From: Mesotoga sp. BH458_6_3_2_1
GTDB lineage: Bacteria; Thermotogota; Thermotogae; Petrotogales; Kosmotogaceae
NCBI RefSeq assembly: GCF_003664995.1
Contig: NZ_JFHL01000029.1
Span: forward strand, 1 to 64,000
Direction: 5' to 3'
DNA length: 64,000 nt
This document shows positions 33,385 to 40,631 of the stretch, piece after piece (within the stretch, counting starts at the first letter, position 1; the number at the start of each line of letters is the position of its first letter). The notes under the pieces were generated by a model. It saw nothing but the letters and a program-made list of their open reading frames with translations, searched no databases and was not told the origin of the DNA. The position numbers were made by a program, and so were the translations under genes.

Positions 33385-33891
33385 TTGCCGGCTTGTGTGA
33401 GGGTCCTGGGAATTGATCCGGGGTTTGGTACTGTTGGATACGGTGTACTCGAGATGAGGGCGTCAAAGATTGAACTCGTTTCATATGGAGCGATCAGAAC
33501 CGAACCCGATGAACCGATTCCAGACAGACTTCTGAAGATCCATGATCAGCTGGAAAGACTTCTACAGGAATGCAGTCCCGACGAGTCGGCAGTTGAGGAG
33601 CTTTTCTTTTTCAGGAATGTCACCACTGCGATACAGGTTAGCGAAGCACGGGGAGTGATTCTTCTTGCTATGAGGAGACATGAAGTGCCCATTTTTGAAT
33701 ATACTCCCCATCAAGTGAAGCTTGCGGTTACAGGTTACGGAAGAGCCGAGAAGGGACAGGTTCAGAGGACTTTGAAAGCCTTTCTGCGGATGAAGGAGAC
33801 TCCGAGACCCGATGATGCTGCCGATGCTCTTGCGGTAGCCTGGTGTCACCTTGCCGCAAGGAAGTTTCCCGGAGGTGTTCGAAAGGCATGA
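33385..33891 (+). CDS. ruvC: Holliday-junction resolvase RuvC
   Basis: Endonuclease that cuts Holliday junctions. The first catalytic Asp is in VLGIDPGFGTVGYGV, the Glu in AVEELFFFRNV, and the final Asp pair in RPDDAADALAVAWCH. 168 aa is typical. TTG start with GGAGGTG upstream; a TATAAT at 33349-33354 is a candidate -10. Its TGA overlaps the polC ATG (ATGA). Confidence 0.96.
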   Translation: MPACVRVLGIDPGFGTVGYGVLEMRASKIELVSYGAIRTEPDEPIPDRLLKIHDQLERLLQECSPDESAVEELFFFRNVTTAIQVSEARGVILLAMRRHEVPIFEYTPHQVKLAVTGYGRAEKGQVQRTLKAFLRMKETPRPDDAADALAVAWCHLAARKFPGGVRKA

Positions 33892-36800
33892 AGCTGTGCA
33901 TGAGGAATTTAGAGCTCCCAATAAAAAGACTTCTATCGAATATTATCGAAGCCGATTTGTCAGTAGAATGTGAAGGCACAGAAGTATCAGAGATATCTAT
34001 CGACTGCGATTCAAAAGAAATTATGATCATGATCGGATGTGAGGTCAGCATAGAGCTCAAGGATTTTCTGGAGTCTGCATTTCTCGAAAAGGCTTCTCAG
34101 TTCCTCAAGTCCTCGGTCCGTCTCTATTTCCAGCCCGTGGGAAGCGGAACAGTCGATGCCGATGAAGAAATATCAAAGGGAGTTAGTGATGCGCAGTTCA
34201 GAGAGATATTGAAGCTCACAAATGGGGCGTCTTCATATTTGGCTTCTTCAGAAATGGTATTCAGTGATGACAGAATATTGATTACTGTTCACGATCAGTT
34301 CTCTTTTCAGCGAATCGGTGCGAAAAAACAGGACTTGAGAAAGGCAATTGAAAAGGTTTGCAAGAAAGCCATTCCATTCGAAGTAATACTAGATATCCGA
34401 GACGATCAGAATGATTTGATCAATGAAGAAGTTTCTAAAAGAGAGGTAGAAAAGGAGACAACCGTTTCTTCGGATGAAGTCGATACAGTCTTGATGGGCA
34501 GAGAGATAAGAGCCGTTTCTAGGAAGATGAAGGAAGTTCTCGGGAATGAATCCGATCTGGTTGTGAGAGGAAAGGTCTTCGGACTTGAAAGTAGGAACGG
34601 TAAGATTTTCATCCTCACATTCAACGTTACTGACCACACAGACTCTCTCACGGTGAAGTTAATTGGTGAAAACGCCCGCTCTCTTTCAGAGAAGCTCCGC
34701 GAGGGTGATGAGATAACTATCAGGGGGAAGATGGAAACAGACAGCTGGATGAAAGACGAAATCCTTATTCCGAGAGACATACAGAGAACAGCTCTTCCCA
34801 AACGTGTTGACGAATCTCTTGAGAAGCGAGTTGAACTCCATCTTCATACAAAAATGAGCGCTCTCGATTCGGTTGTGGATGTTCGAGAACTGGTCAATAC
34901 CTTGAAGGATTGGGGACATGAGGCCGCCGCGATAACCGACCACGGTGTGGTCCAGTCCATTCCCGAGTTCTATTTTGCTGCAAAGAAGAAGGGAATCAAG
35001 CCAATATTCGGTATGGAAGGTTACATGATCAACGACTCCCAGCAGATATCAATGAATCTGGATGAAGAAGACTCATCGCTCGATGACGCTTTGTTCCTGG
35101 TTTTTGATCTCGAGACTACCGGTCTCAATCCCAAAGAAGATGAGATCATTGAAATAGGCGCCATCAAAATGAAGGGAAGTGAAGTCTTAGGCACTTACTC
35201 CACCTTTGTGAAGCCGGAAAAAGAACTCTCGGCAATGATCACAAGCCTGACGGGAATTACCGAAGATATGCTTTCCGAAGCACGCCCGATCAAAGAGGTG
35301 CTTCCCGAATTCACGAAGTTTACTGAAGGCTGCATACTAGTTGCACATAACGCTTCTTTCGATTATGGATTCGTCCGCAATTCAGTGAAGAAGCACTTCG
35401 GAGGCGACTGGGAAATGCCGTGCATCGATACCCTGGCACTCGCAAAGAGCCTTTTCAGGTCGAAGAGTTATTCCCTCGATAATGTTGTCAAACGGTTGAA
35501 GCTAGGTCATTTCGATCATCACAGAGCTTTCGAAGACGCAAAGGTGACGGCCGAAGTTCTGAAAAAGTTTGTTCAGCTGGCAAAGAAGAGAGGGGTTCAG
35601 AATGTGAATGAACTTGAGAAACTCAGGAAGAACCAGAATCTCGATTCGTTGAAACCCTTTCACATAAGTATACTTGCAAAGAACAAGAAAGGACTGGAGA
35701 ATCTCTACAGATTGGTCACAGCTTCTCACACGAAGTATTTCTACATGAAGCCAAGAATCCCCAAGAGCTTGCTCGCTGATATGAGGGAAGGCCTTCTAAT
35801 TGGCAGCGCATGCGTTTCCGGGGAGCTGTCTAAAGCCTATATAGGTGGAGCGAGTACTGATGAACTCGAGGAGATCGCAAAGTTTTACGATTACATTGAA
35901 GTCATGCCACTGGATAACATCGACACTTCGGAAGGCGAGACTAATATGTCGAGGGAAACGCTTGCGAAAATGTACCGGGAGTTCTATAAGGTGGGAAAGA
36001 GATTGAACATTCCAGTTGTAATGACGGGGGATGTCCATCTCTTGAATCCTCATGACGATATCTTCAGAGCAGCGATAAATGCAGCTCAGGATTACGATAA
36101 CTTCCAGAACCAACCTTCGCTGTATCTCCACACTACAGAAGAGATGTTGGATAAAGCAAGCGAGATATTTGAAGACGAGATAATTGTCAGAGAAGTAGTC
36201 ATTGACAATTCCAGATACATAGCTTCGCTAATTGAAGAAGTGACACCCGTTGAGGGCAAACTTCACCCTCCAGTAATCGAAGGAGCTGATGAAGAGGTAC
36301 GGAAAATGGCAATCGAGAATGCCGAGAGTCTCTATGGCAGTCCTTTGCCAGAGATCGTTGAAAGAAGGCTTAATCGAGAGCTTGAAGCCATTATAGGCCA
36401 CGGATACGCAGTTCTATATCTGATTGCTCAGAAGATGGTGAAGAAGTCTAATGAAGACGGTTACGTTGTTGGCTCAAGAGGTTCCGTAGGCAGCTCTCTA
36501 GTGGCAAACGTAATCGGTATAACTGAAGTAAACCCGCTCCACCCACATTATCTCTGTCCTGAATGTGGTAAGTCGATCTTTCCAGAAACTGATCTCGAAT
36601 GCGGTTACGATCTTCCCGATATGAATTGTCCCATCTGCGGGAAGAAGATGTCGAAGAACGGGCAGAGCATACCATTCGAGACTTTTCTCGGATTTGAGGG
36701 AGACAAAGTGCCTGATATTGACCTTAATTTCTCCGGTGAATATCAGGAGCGCGCTCATTCTTTCATCGAAGAGTTGTTTGGAAGGGATCACGTGTTCAGG

Positions 36801-38129
36801 GCCGGTACAATTTCTACTCTTGCCGAAAGAACAGCCTTCGGTTTTGTCAGAGCCTATTCAGAAAAGAGCGGTAGAAACCTTCGAAGAGCAGAACAGGAGA
36901 GAATAGCGCGAGGAATCGTAGGTGTCAGGAGAACAACTGGTCAGCATCCCGGCGGACTGATGATCGTGCCAAAAGACATGGATGTTCATAGTTTCACACC
37001 GGTACAGCACCCCGCAAATGATACGAAGGGTTCAACGTTGACAACACACTTTGCTTATGAAGTCATACACGATGATCTTGTGAAGATAGATGCTCTGGGT
37101 CATGACGATCCCACTTTCATCAAGATGTTGAAAGACATCACTGGGGTCGATCCTGAAAAGATCCCTATGGATGATCCGGAAACGTTGTCAATCTTTTCTT
37201 CTTTGAAGTCCCTAGGTGTCAAGTATCACGAGCTAGGAACGGACATGGGAACCCTTGGGATTCCAGAGTTCGGCACTACTTTCGTTCGTAGTATGCTTTC
37301 AGATACTAGACCTTCTACCTTTGGTGAGCTTGTCAGAATCTCCGGTCTTTCACACGGAACAGATGTGTGGTTGAACAACGCTAAAGATATTATCACTTCT
37401 CGGCAGGCATCGCTGTCGAATGTCATTGCCTGTCGTGATGACATAATGAACTATCTGATTGCGAGGGGAATGGAGCCAAAAGATGCCTTCAAGATTATGG
37501 AGAAGGTCAGAAAGGGTAAGGGCTTAAGCGAAGAGGATGAAAGAGAGGTAAGGTCTTGCGGTGCTCCTGAGTGGTTTGTCAATTCCTGTAAGAAGATCAA
37601 GTATCTCTTTCCCAGAGCACATGCCGCTGCATACGTTAGTATGGGATACAGAGTGGCGTATTTCAAAGTACACTATCCCCTCGCCTTTTACAGCACCTAT
37701 TTTTCGATTAAAGGCGGAGAGTTTGATATAGACATCTGTACCTCGGACACAAACTCAATCAAAAAGGAGATAATAAGATTAAGAGCTGATCAAGACAGAA
37801 ATGTGAAAGACAGGGCGAAGGAGACACTCCTTGAAGTAGTGATGGAAATGATATACAGGGGATTCAACTTCTTGAATGTTGACCTCATGAAATCACATCC
37901 TACGAGATTCTTAATTGAAGGCAAATCCCTCAGGATACCCTTCAACAGACTACAGAACATGGGGTATAAAGCAGCGAGATCTATCGAGCAGGAAAGAGAG
38001 AAGAGGGTATTCTCTTCGGTTGAGGATCTGGTTAGGAGAACTTCTCTAAACAAAACAAGTGTAGAAATGTTGAGAAAGTATGGTGCGTTGAAGGGGCTCG
38101 CCGAGAAAGAACAGATAAGGCTGTTCTGA
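33888..38129 (+). CDS. polC: DNA polymerase III alpha subunit, PolC type with proofreading exonuclease
   Basis: Replicative polymerase of about 1413 aa. An N-terminal domain and an OB-fold (about 215-305) precede the PHP domain, which begins ELHLHTKMSALDSVVD. The DEDD exonuclease is inserted in PHP: FDLETTGLNPKEDEIIEIG, VAHNASFDYGF and HRAFEDAKVTAE. The palm includes a zinc site (CPECGKS and CPICGKK) and the catalytic VPDIDLNFSGEYQ. The protein ends EKEQIRLF, matching the QxxLF sliding-clamp-binding motif. ATG at 33888 is chosen for its ATGA overlap with ruvC and GGAGGTG upstream. A clamp-like gene follows after 8 nt. Confidence 0.96.
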   Translation: MKLCMRNLELPIKRLLSNIIEADLSVECEGTEVSEISIDCDSKEIMIMIGCEVSIELKDFLESAFLEKASQFLKSSVRLYFQPVGSGTVDADEEISKGVSDAQFREILKLTNGASSYLASSEMVFSDDRILITVHDQFSFQRIGAKKQDLRKAIEKVCKKAIPFEVILDIRDDQNDLINEEVSKREVEKETTVSSDEVDTVLMGREIRAVSRKMKEVLGNESDLVVRGKVFGLESRNGKIFILTFNVTDHTDSLTVKLIGENARSLSEKLREGDEITIRGKMETDSWMKDEILIPRDIQRTALPKRVDESLEKRVELHLHTKMSALDSVVDVRELVNTLKDWGHEAAAITDHGVVQSIPEFYFAAKKKGIKPIFGMEGYMINDSQQISMNLDEEDSSLDDALFLVFDLETTGLNPKEDEIIEIGAIKMKGSEVLGTYSTFVKPEKELSAMITSLTGITEDMLSEARPIKEVLPEFTKFTEGCILVAHNASFDYGFVRNSVKKHFGGDWEMPCIDTLALAKSLFRSKSYSLDNVVKRLKLGHFDHHRAFEDAKVTAEVLKKFVQLAKKRGVQNVNELEKLRKNQNLDSLKPFHISILAKNKKGLENLYRLVTASHTKYFYMKPRIPKSLLADMREGLLIGSACVSGELSKAYIGGASTDELEEIAKFYDYIEVMPLDNIDTSEGETNMSRETLAKMYREFYKVGKRLNIPVVMTGDVHLLNPHDDIFRAAINAAQDYDNFQNQPSLYLHTTEEMLDKASEIFEDEIIVREVVIDNSRYIASLIEEVTPVEGKLHPPVIEGADEEVRKMAIENAESLYGSPLPEIVERRLNRELEAIIGHGYAVLYLIAQKMVKKSNEDGYVVGSRGSVGSSLVANVIGITEVNPLHPHYLCPECGKSIFPETDLECGYDLPDMNCPICGKKMSKNGQSIPFETFLGFEGDKVPDIDLNFSGEYQERAHSFIEELFGRDHVFRAGTISTLAERTAFGFVRAYSEKSGRNLRRAEQERIARGIVGVRRTTGQHPGGLMIVPKDMDVHSFTPVQHPANDTKGSTLTTHFAYEVIHDDLVKIDALGHDDPTFIKMLKDITGVDPEKIPMDDPETLSIFSSLKSLGVKYHELGTDMGTLGIPEFGTTFVRSMLSDTRPSTFGELVRISGLSHGTDVWLNNAKDIITSRQASLSNVIACRDDIMNYLIARGMEPKDAFKIMEKVRKGKGLSEEDEREVRSCGAPEWFVNSCKKIKYLFPRAHAAAYVSMGYRVAYFKVHYPLAFYSTYFSIKGGEFDIDICTSDTNSIKKEIIRLRADQDRNVKDRAKETLLEVVMEMIYRGFNFLNVDLMKSHPTRFLIEGKSLRIPFNRLQNMGYKAARSIEQEREKRVFSSVEDLVRRTSLNKTSVEMLRKYGALKGLAEKEQIRLF

Positions 38130-38137
38130 GGATTGAG

Positions 38138-39184
38138 ATGAATTTCAGGTTGGTTTCCTCGGATTATTCAAAGTTGATAGATCTATTTGGAAGGGTGTCA
38201 GGTACAGTTGAGCCCTCCTATCGCTATTTTCAGATCTATTATAGAAGGGGTCTGAAGTTCTTTGCGACAGACGGGTGTCTGAAGCTTGAGTTCTCATCCA
38301 GCATTCCTGTTGATCCTTTCACCGGTGTCTATTCTGTTCCAATAGATTACGCTCGAGCTTTGAAGAGCTCAGACGAAAAGTCCTTTGTCTCTTTCTCCTC
38401 TGAAGGCGAAACCATTGAAATTAAGACTGATTCAGAGACTCTAAGCCTTCAGAAAGCTCGAGATGATGCGCTTCCTGCCATGGAAAGAAAGTTTGAGTTC
38501 TCTTCGCGTTTTCCTTTGAAAGAGTTCAACGAATCTCTGAATTTCGTTTCCGCAGCATCTATGGAAGGCGATACCGTTGAGATCTTCTCTAAGGGGAGCG
38601 AAACGATTCTTGCAGCATCGGCCGGTAGATTGGTCTTGCTGTCGATTCTCGAATATGAGCCGAGAACTGACTTTCACTTCTCTCTTCAGTACGTAACCGT
38701 CAGACATCTCGTAAAGACGTTAGAGTTGCTGAAAACACAAGTGCTTGATGCTGGAAGCGGGATTTCCGAGCTGGGATTAAAGGCAGGGACGCTGCTTTTT
38801 TCAATCTGCACGGATGAAACTGAATTTCCCAAACCACCATCCTTTCTCTTCGGTGAGACTGCCTCGGGAGTTGGTGTGCAGAAAAAGGCCTTCCTTTCTG
38901 CTTTACGAAAGATCACAAGGCTATCCAGGCGCGGCTTTTCTGTTCTTATGATATCGGATGGAAAAAAACTGAAGTTGTTTCTCAAAGCCGGCAGCCTCAG
39001 GTATGAGTGTGAAATTTCGGCCTTCAGTGGAGAAGAGTTCGTGATCCAGCTAGATCCAAGAAAGCTGCAGTCCGCTCTTTCGAGGATCAACGATTCCTTG
39101 ATTCTCCTTTTGATGAAAAAGGGGAATCTTCTAATGGTGGGCAAGAAAAGCAAGATGTACCTACTGATTCCACTCATCAATTAA
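38138..39184 (+). CDS. divergent sliding-clamp (DnaN-fold) protein next to polC
   Basis: A 348-residue protein laid out like the DNA polymerase III beta clamp: three similar domains of about 115 residues. Clamp-like landmarks in order are LKFFATDGCLKLEFSSSI, PLKEFNESLNFVSAAS, FSLQYVTVRHLVKTLELL, TEFPKPPSFLFGE, VQKKAFLSALRKITRLS, FVIQLDPRKLQSALSRI and the C-terminal YLLIPLIN. The last resembles the YxxMPxRL end of DnaN. The domain II ATDGFRLA motif is reduced to LAASAGRLVLL. It could be a second clamp or this organism's only one; dnaN is not otherwise in the window. It is 8 nt after polC, whose C-terminus carries a clamp-binding motif. Confidence 0.72.
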   Translation: MNFRLVSSDYSKLIDLFGRVSGTVEPSYRYFQIYYRRGLKFFATDGCLKLEFSSSIPVDPFTGVYSVPIDYARALKSSDEKSFVSFSSEGETIEIKTDSETLSLQKARDDALPAMERKFEFSSRFPLKEFNESLNFVSAASMEGDTVEIFSKGSETILAASAGRLVLLSILEYEPRTDFHFSLQYVTVRHLVKTLELLKTQVLDAGSGISELGLKAGTLLFSICTDETEFPKPPSFLFGETASGVGVQKKAFLSALRKITRLSRRGFSVLMISDGKKLKLFLKAGSLRYECEISAFSGEEFVIQLDPRKLQSALSRINDSLILLLMKKGNLLMVGKKSKMYLLIPLIN

Positions 39185-39284: not shown

Positions 39285-40631
39285 ATGAGTATTCTTGAAG
39301 TTAGAGGAATTGAGAAGACATACAGTGGCAAGAGAATTCTGAAAGCTGTTAGTTTTGATCTGGAGAGTGGAAAACTGACTGTTCTAGGAGGTTTGAACGG
39401 CATAGGAAAGTCGACGCTCATCAAGATGATGAGCGGGGACATCCGTCCGGATTCAGGCGAGATAGTCTTTGACGGTCACCACGTCGAACTGCGGTCAATT
39501 GTTGAGGCGAGGCGGATCGGTCTAAGTGCCGTTTATCAAGAATATATGCTTGTTCCCGATCTTACAGTCGCTGAGAATATCTTTCTTGGATCCGGCAAGT
39601 TTACAATCAGCAGAAAAAAGATGAACAGCGAGGCTTCGCGACTGCTTTCCAAATTTGGTCTAAGCTTTGATCCTTCGTCAAAAGTCTCTTCACTTTCATC
39701 TGACGAGCAGGCGCTGCTGGAGTTTGCAGCTGCTGTCTTTTCGGAGCCCAAAGTTCTAATGATCGATGATCTGTTCTCAGTTTTGCAGACAGAATCCAGG
39801 AAGCGGCTTCTCCAAATGATTGAAGTGATCAAGAATAAAGGAACCGCAGTCCTTGTTGTAACCACCGATCCAGACTTGATGCTAATGGCAGATCATCTCC
39901 TTTTTATGGACGAGTCGGGAGTTGAGTACCTACCATGCCCGATCGAAAGGGGAGCGATACTTGAGAGAATGGGAGCCTCGAGCGATTTCTCAATACTTCC
40001 CGCAGAAGGAGAACTGCTGATTGAAATAAGTAACCTTGCCGGTTCAGGGCAAGATCTCAGTTTGAAAAGAGGAGAGGTTCTGAATATCTTTTGTGAAAGT
40101 GGAGAGCTGGTGAGAGCATTCACACGAGCTATGATCAGACAGGATCCTTTTACAGACAACTCGGTCCCTTTATTTAGAGAGGCGAAGAGTTTCTTCGATA
40201 GGTTTTCCTCCAGATCGTCTTCTACTCCAGCCGAAAAGTATTTCTGCTCAAACCTTAAGAATACAGGACTTGTTTCTCAGGTGATGCTGAAGAAATCGGG
40301 GAGTTTCAAATCATCCAAGTCACTCAAGAAAAGCTTCATTCTGAACAAGGAGAGCGTTGTTTCAGTCAAGAGTTTTCTTGCGGGTCTTGAAAGAATCCCG
40401 GGGTTCTCCGGCCTCGTGTCTGAGGAAGACAAAAAGCTTTCTCAGTTGAGGTTCGATGCCTGTGATCTCTATGTATTCGTAAGACCCCTGCTGGGGCTAG
40501 ACCCGGTTTCAGTAAATGCTCTTTCGACCGTTCTTCAGGAAATTGTAAATAGATCTAAGGCCGCAGTAATTATCTCTGACGAGGCCGGAAGCAGTATGTT
40601 GAGCACGAGGAAAATGAGGAGCTCCGAATGA
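39285..40631 (+). CDS. orphan, degenerate sugar-ABC-type ATPase
   Basis: A 448-residue protein shaped like the two-domain RbsA/MglA sugar-ABC ATPases (usually about 500 aa). Domain 1 starts LEVRGIEKTYSGKRILKAVS with Walker A GGLNGIGKST (residues 35-44) and the Q-loop YQEYMLVPDLTVAENIF. The signature is altered to SSLSSDEQALLEFA and the Walker B end is VLMIDDLFS, so the catalytic Glu is replaced by Asp. Domain 2 has lost Walker A altogether. No permease or binding protein is nearby. ATP binding may remain but normal transport catalysis looks unlikely. The next gene overlaps it (ATGA). Confidence 0.75.
   Translation: MSILEVRGIEKTYSGKRILKAVSFDLESGKLTVLGGLNGIGKSTLIKMMSGDIRPDSGEIVFDGHHVELRSIVEARRIGLSAVYQEYMLVPDLTVAENIFLGSGKFTISRKKMNSEASRLLSKFGLSFDPSSKVSSLSSDEQALLEFAAAVFSEPKVLMIDDLFSVLQTESRKRLLQMIEVIKNKGTAVLVVTTDPDLMLMADHLLFMDESGVEYLPCPIERGAILERMGASSDFSILPAEGELLIEISNLAGSGQDLSLKRGEVLNIFCESGELVRAFTRAMIRQDPFTDNSVPLFREAKSFFDRFSSRSSSTPAEKYFCSNLKNTGLVSQVMLKKSGSFKSSKSLKKSFILNKESVVSVKSFLAGLERIPGFSGLVSEEDKKLSQLRFDACDLYVFVRPLLGLDPVSVNALSTVLQEIVNRSKAAVIISDEAGSSMLSTRKMRSSE

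Follow-up and report, generated by a model that had tools for sequence, protein, structure and literature searches.

In the standard view, bacteria have one sliding clamp with one pocket that is common to every client, and eukaryotes offer an example of split clamp functions with the PCNA-like 9-1-1 ring. The Bacillus clamp DnaN-2 (B. anthracis dnaN-2) is a second chromosomal beta clamp that has about 40% in common with DnaN and is regarded as capable of participating in replication (PMC3290774). GriR and MypR are self-resistance copies of DnaN located inside antibiotic biosynthetic clusters (PMC10817943). In addition, Foldseek matches in BFVD include DnaN-like clamps of phages, which are divergent clamp folds (8-16% identity).

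Here, we analysed a 64,000-nt stretch of DNA from Mesotoga sp. BH458_6_3_2_1 (positions 1 to 64,000 of contig NZ_JFHL01000029.1; hereafter the window), which encodes a clamp homologue termed clamp2. Like Bacillus DnaN-2, clamp2 is an extra chromosomal clamp, but it is far more divergent and is near-universal in another phylum, the Thermotogota. Like GriR and MypR, it is a second DnaN-type gene; unlike them, it has no biosynthetic-cluster context and is kept phylum-wide. It shares the divergent clamp fold of the phage proteins, yet occurs in nearly all Thermotogota genomes, and searching the phage and plasmid records with the protein gave no match. To be grouped with DnaN-2 and GriR/MypR, a protein would have to be a close relative of DnaN and have its pocket; clamp2 shows 16-22% identity to DnaN and has lost the pocket. 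These second clamps are all described as DnaN.

The clamp2 locus and its clamp homology

The gene order in the window is ruvC, polC, clamp2, with the following features:

33385..33891, forward strand: ruvC, 5' of polC and overlapping it (Pfam, neighbourhood)
33843..38129, forward strand: polC, with PHP, exonuclease, polymerase and HhH domains and the C-terminal clamp motif QIRLF (Pfam)
38123..38140, forward strand: polC stop codon TGA (38127-38129) and a GAGG motif resembling a ribosome-binding site before the clamp2 ATG (sequence)
38138..39184, forward strand: clamp2, a divergent DnaN paralogue of 348 aa with an ATG start (profile comparison, AlphaFold, Foldseek, family alignment)
within 38138..39184, forward strand: three clamp domains of clamp2, at about residues 1-106, 120-224 and 245-348 (AlphaFold, alignment)

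The sequence bears out the first-pass annotation of this DNA, which described a 348-aa ORF beginning 8 nt past a polC that ends in EKEQIRLF; the clamp2 ATG lies 8 nt downstream of the polC stop (38129). The two genes are probably part of one operon, and the polC stop codon with the GAGG motif just ahead of the clamp2 ATG suggests that they are probably translationally coupled. The overlap between ruvC and polC holds if polC begins at the listed GTG, and its start may be further downstream. Neighbourhood comparison revealed the same gene set, with ruvC first, in the relatives L125 and L127-L132 as well. That Kosmotogaceae-type genomes, and most of the Petrotogaceae type, have these three genes together would suit a function in replication or repair. 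The closest named relatives are from Mesotoga sp. and other Kosmotogaceae MAGs, with 94% identity to Mesotoga sp. WOFB36. The window also encodes an ABC ATPase (39285-40631), of which Pfam recognises the first ABC domain alone and whose C-terminal half looks eroded.

The clamp homology of clamp2 is detectable only with profiles, and single-sequence searches were nearly silent. The single protein had no match in Pfam, and phmmer against the PDB gave little or nothing, as with Pfam and NCBIfam. The DnaN model TIGR00663 matched clamp2 with E=2e-4 and 20.5 bits, far short of the curated equivalog cut-off of 137.65 bits, and was matched by just 2 of 31 clamp2 family members even at E<=0.1. At the profile level, hhalign placed residues 1-347 of the clamp2 family collinear with residues 3-365 of Thermotogota DnaN, which confirms the beta-clamp order of landmarks noted earlier along the full length. 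The top 15 PDB matches of the 31-sequence clamp2 profile were all beta clamps, including the T. maritima DnaN structure 1vpk over residues 1-328.

The comparison with the T. maritima DnaN structure that had been proposed as a check was carried out with an AlphaFold2 model built from 8 sequences (pLDDT 87.8, pTM 0.86). The model contains three clamp domains, each of eight strands and two helices, and its top Foldseek matches are beta clamps only (1vpk, TM 0.80). For a clamp2 member at 23% identity, the prediction arrived at this fold too, though less confidently (pLDDT 76.3). The ORF at 38138-39184 is a full-length three-domain beta-clamp homologue.

It shares with DnaN (TIGR00663; PF00712/PF02767/PF02768; T. 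maritima TM0262, 1vpk) the three-domain fold, the full-length collinearity and the basic helices. However, identity is about 16-22% and clamp2 remains under all curated cut-offs. Furthermore, it has no QxxLF pocket, a shortened alpha1-beta2 loop in domain II, invariant residues of its own and another locus. Since it fails on both the curated score and the pocket, two defining tests for DnaN, we did not file clamp2 as DnaN despite its clamp fold.

Between close Mesotoga-type genomes, dN/dS was 0.07-0.09 for clamp2, and the same pairs gave 0.02-0.04 for polC and dnaN. Judged from these low ratios, clamp2 is under purifying selection, yet evolving faster than polC and dnaN.

Distribution of clamp2 and DnaN in the Thermotogota

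Considering that clamp2 has a clamp fold, it could in principle be the lineage's own dnaN in an unusual place. This reading has practically no probability left, as the same genome carries a normal, full-length DnaN of 368 aa, in which each of the three Pfam clamp domains scores over cut-off; across the phylum, a DnaN over cut-off is present in 100 of 103 genomes. A search of the source genome located this ordinary dnaN on another contig than clamp2 (G000:C2:539986-541089), so that the second clamp is distinct from dnaN, as had been supposed, and clamp2 as the sole dnaN of the genome is ruled out. Thus, neither of the two outcomes that the first-pass annotation had named as refuting, a structure lacking the three clamp domains or a sole, normally placed dnaN, was encountered. 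Some genomes deviate from this pattern. Two drafts (G041, G042) have a clear clamp2 and no DnaN match, probably due to assembly gaps; G083 has two DnaN over cut-off in addition to clamp2, and G050 encodes, besides clamp2, a second DnaN-type clamp in a 502-aa frame slightly under cut-off. A broken second copy of DnaN with in-frame TAG and TAA codons (G018:C1:1818024-1819064) accompanies an intact DnaN.

The profile search covered 390 genomes, i.e., 103 Thermotogota and about 287 others that were not chosen for PolC, and is the real test of phylum restriction. The related-locus search with close alignment reached 7 Thermotogota loci only, and its silence outside the phylum says little. Within the Thermotogota, clamp2 was found in 97 of 103 genomes by single sequence and in 98 of 103 by profile; those without it (G043, G044, G065, G086, G087) are all draft assemblies. 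The other genomes, about 287, gave weak profile matches only (best 1.4e-10), and the three compared by coordinates (G119, G166, G168) fall within the DnaN gene. In one genome (G059), a partial tandem duplicate comprising domains II/III (L072:1808-2401, 197 aa) directly follows clamp2.

In a tree of 79 clamps, clamp2 formed a single clade (SH-aLRT 100), whose branch measures 3.2 changes per column. This clade attaches to the region of the tree that holds the Thermotogota DnaN, a placement for which long-branch error is possible. Following the tree, the divergence of clamp2 from DnaN would date to the common ancestor of the Thermotogota or earlier, and clamp2 would then have been retained nearly phylum-wide. 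The family is nameless in the libraries searched and stays under the Pfam and NCBIfam cut-offs. The clamp2 of G090, the gene after alaS, is probably TM1395 of T. maritima, and we found nothing relevant in the literature on TM1395 or on a second clamp in Thermotoga. Together, these results make it almost certain that clamp2 is a second clamp-fold family, distinct from DnaN and phylum-wide in the Thermotogota, and it is apparently an undescribed DnaN paralogue.

Linkage to PolC and the canonical binding pocket

The first-pass annotation had considered a clamp dedicated to PolC and suggested a search for polC-clamp neighbours across the Thermotogota. This search recovered the linkage in two families. 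In the family of the source (Kosmotogaceae-type), clamp2 adjoins polC in 16 of 17 genomes, and in the sister family (Petrotogaceae-type) in 14 of 21, which amounts to 30 of 38 for both. However, adjacency is confined to these families. None of the 20 genomes from other families with both genes on one contig showed it; there, the distance is 35 kb to 1.7 Mb, and clamp2 neighbours unrelated housekeeping genes (alaS, D-Ala-D-Ala ligase, tsaD/clpX, ychF, gcpE). Several genera of the sister family encode a second, shorter PolC-like ORF of about 900-1025 aa that is 37-47% identical to the C-terminal part of the source PolC (genomes G018, G020-G022, G024, G025, G027-G029, G036, G037).

To compare the pocket between both clamps, positions were numbered after what we take to be the E. 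coli DnaN sequence and the residues of its QxxLF pocket; residue identities and length were checked, and at 16-22% identity the equivalence between clamp2 and DnaN is uncertain in loops. In Thermotogota DnaN, conservation reaches 100% at D173, R176, P242 and P363 and 96-98% at L155 and M362. In clamp2, the positions of D173, R176, P242, M362 and P363 are variable, and the loop 152-155 holding Y153-L155 is missing from all sequences. The elements of the canonical pocket (the ATDGxRL turn, FPDY and the C-terminal MPxR) are near-invariant in DnaN of this phylum and lost or variable in clamp2. One of them lies at:

38618..38635, forward strand: domain II turn, residues 161-166, ATDGFRLA in DnaN, eroded here and unconserved in the family (alignment)

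The erosion of ATDGFRLA in domain II had been read from this one sequence, and the family alignment bears it out. Both the LAASAGRLVLL stretch that replaces it and the YLLIPLIN tail, regarded as DnaN-like, are present in clamp2, and domain I retains ATDG (residues 43-46). The tail is a trait of this lineage, with P345 found in only 36% of clamp2 sequences, and was rejected as a feature of the family. Judging from the alignment, the canonical QxxLF-binding pocket is lost in clamp2.

These data bear on the proposal that PolC docks on clamp2 through its C-terminal QxxLF for replication, with DnaN serving DnaE and repair. The direct linkage in 30 genomes of two families and the co-occurrence of clamp2 and PolC across the Thermotogota are in line with it. 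Yet the linkage is absent in all 20 same-contig cases from other families, the pocket that would receive the motif appears lost in clamp2 and intact in DnaN, and the genomes sampled from other phyla, which were not chosen for PolC, yielded no clamp2. The motif itself is the ordinary one, reported in 98% of PolC sequences (PMC3919608), so that the end of PolC, initially taken as a pointer to clamp2, was rejected as special evidence for a private clamp. A clamp dedicated to PolC was therefore not borne out, and we consider it improbable.

Candidate partner site and DNA-facing helices

The family alignment revealed residues that are near-invariant in clamp2 (G22, E25, D45, G46, C47, E143, R189, H190, K193, C224, R316). 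The equivalent DnaN positions mostly hold different residues, D45 being common to both. They include the following sites:

38201..38224, forward strand: alpha1-beta2 loop of domain I, G22 and E25 near-invariant, P26 and R29 mostly conserved (alignment, model)
38270..38278, forward strand: D45-G46-C47, beta3-beta4 turn of domain I, near-invariant (alignment)
38702..38716, forward strand: R189-H190-x-x-K193, start of domain II alpha2, with R and K in 69/69 and H in 67/69 sequences (alignment)
38807..38809, forward strand: C224, end of domain II, near-invariant (alignment)

One family has lost both C47 and C224; this joint loss counts as one evolutionary event and fits a physical contact between the two residues.

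Shifted back by one domain, the canonical pocket elements correspond in domain I to the alpha1-beta2 loop and the beta3-beta4 turn, between the domains to the I/II linker, and in domain II to the alpha1-beta2 loop, the start of alpha2 and the end of beta8. Of the 11 clamp2 positions that are conserved to at least 90%, 9 belong to this mirror set (expected 1.5, p=3e-7), a post hoc figure, given that the site was defined by secondary-structure equivalence and noticed after the conserved residues had been seen. The canonical-site set holds 1 of the 11. We infer that a partner may be recruited through a new candidate site at the domain I/II junction, formed by E25, R29, D45-G46-C47, E143, R189-H190 and C224, which would be the internal-symmetry counterpart of the classical II/III pocket. 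With such a site, clamp2 would probably recruit a factor other than PolC.

The invariants are polar (E, D, R, H, K, C) and could equally well form a metal, catalytic or structural site. This leads to another reading, in which the clamp fold no longer encircles DNA and E25, D45, C47, E143, R189, H190 and C224 constitute a metal-binding, redox, catalytic or structural core of an enzyme or scaffold. The invariants are indeed nearly all charged or Cys/His and clustered by fold equivalence, two cysteines were lost jointly, and the canonical partner pocket is gone. On the other hand, the family without both cysteines retains most of the other conserved residues, and the helices that would line the channel are strongly basic. 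Their median net charge, summed over six helices, is +11 in clamp2 vs +4 in DnaN; outside these helices, clamp2 is less acidic than DnaN. In addition, each domain has conserved R/K positions in its second helix (K/R73, R189/K193, R316), as would be expected of a DNA-facing surface. This makes a protein that does not encircle DNA rather unlikely.

The basic helices fit a DNA-facing channel, and we slightly favour clamp2 being a DNA-encircling ring with a private partner. It would form a two-chain ring with the basic helices towards the DNA, and its task would probably not be to hold PolC but to bring another factor to DNA or the fork. More tentatively, and at somewhat less than even odds, clamp2 may represent a second kind of Thermotogota clamp, a repair-clamp counterpart whose partner site has moved from the II/III to the I/II groove (or which has a metal or catalytic site there) and whose partner does not use QxxLF. 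If true, a phylum-wide second clamp without the pocket would mean that clamp functions are divisible in bacteria, as with 9-1-1. The probable presence of clamp2 in T. maritima makes this testable in a workhorse of structural biology.

Finally, clamp2 could pair with DnaN in a mixed ring or act on the clamp loader and thus regulate DnaN loading. Both proteins occur in nearly every genome and have a homologous fold, and the interface strand of domain I keeps the hydrophobic residues L102 and L104. Nevertheless, clamp2 has other residues in place of the charged ones at the DnaN interface (E304 and R103, for example), and we give this reading slightly less weight still than a clamp dedicated to PolC.
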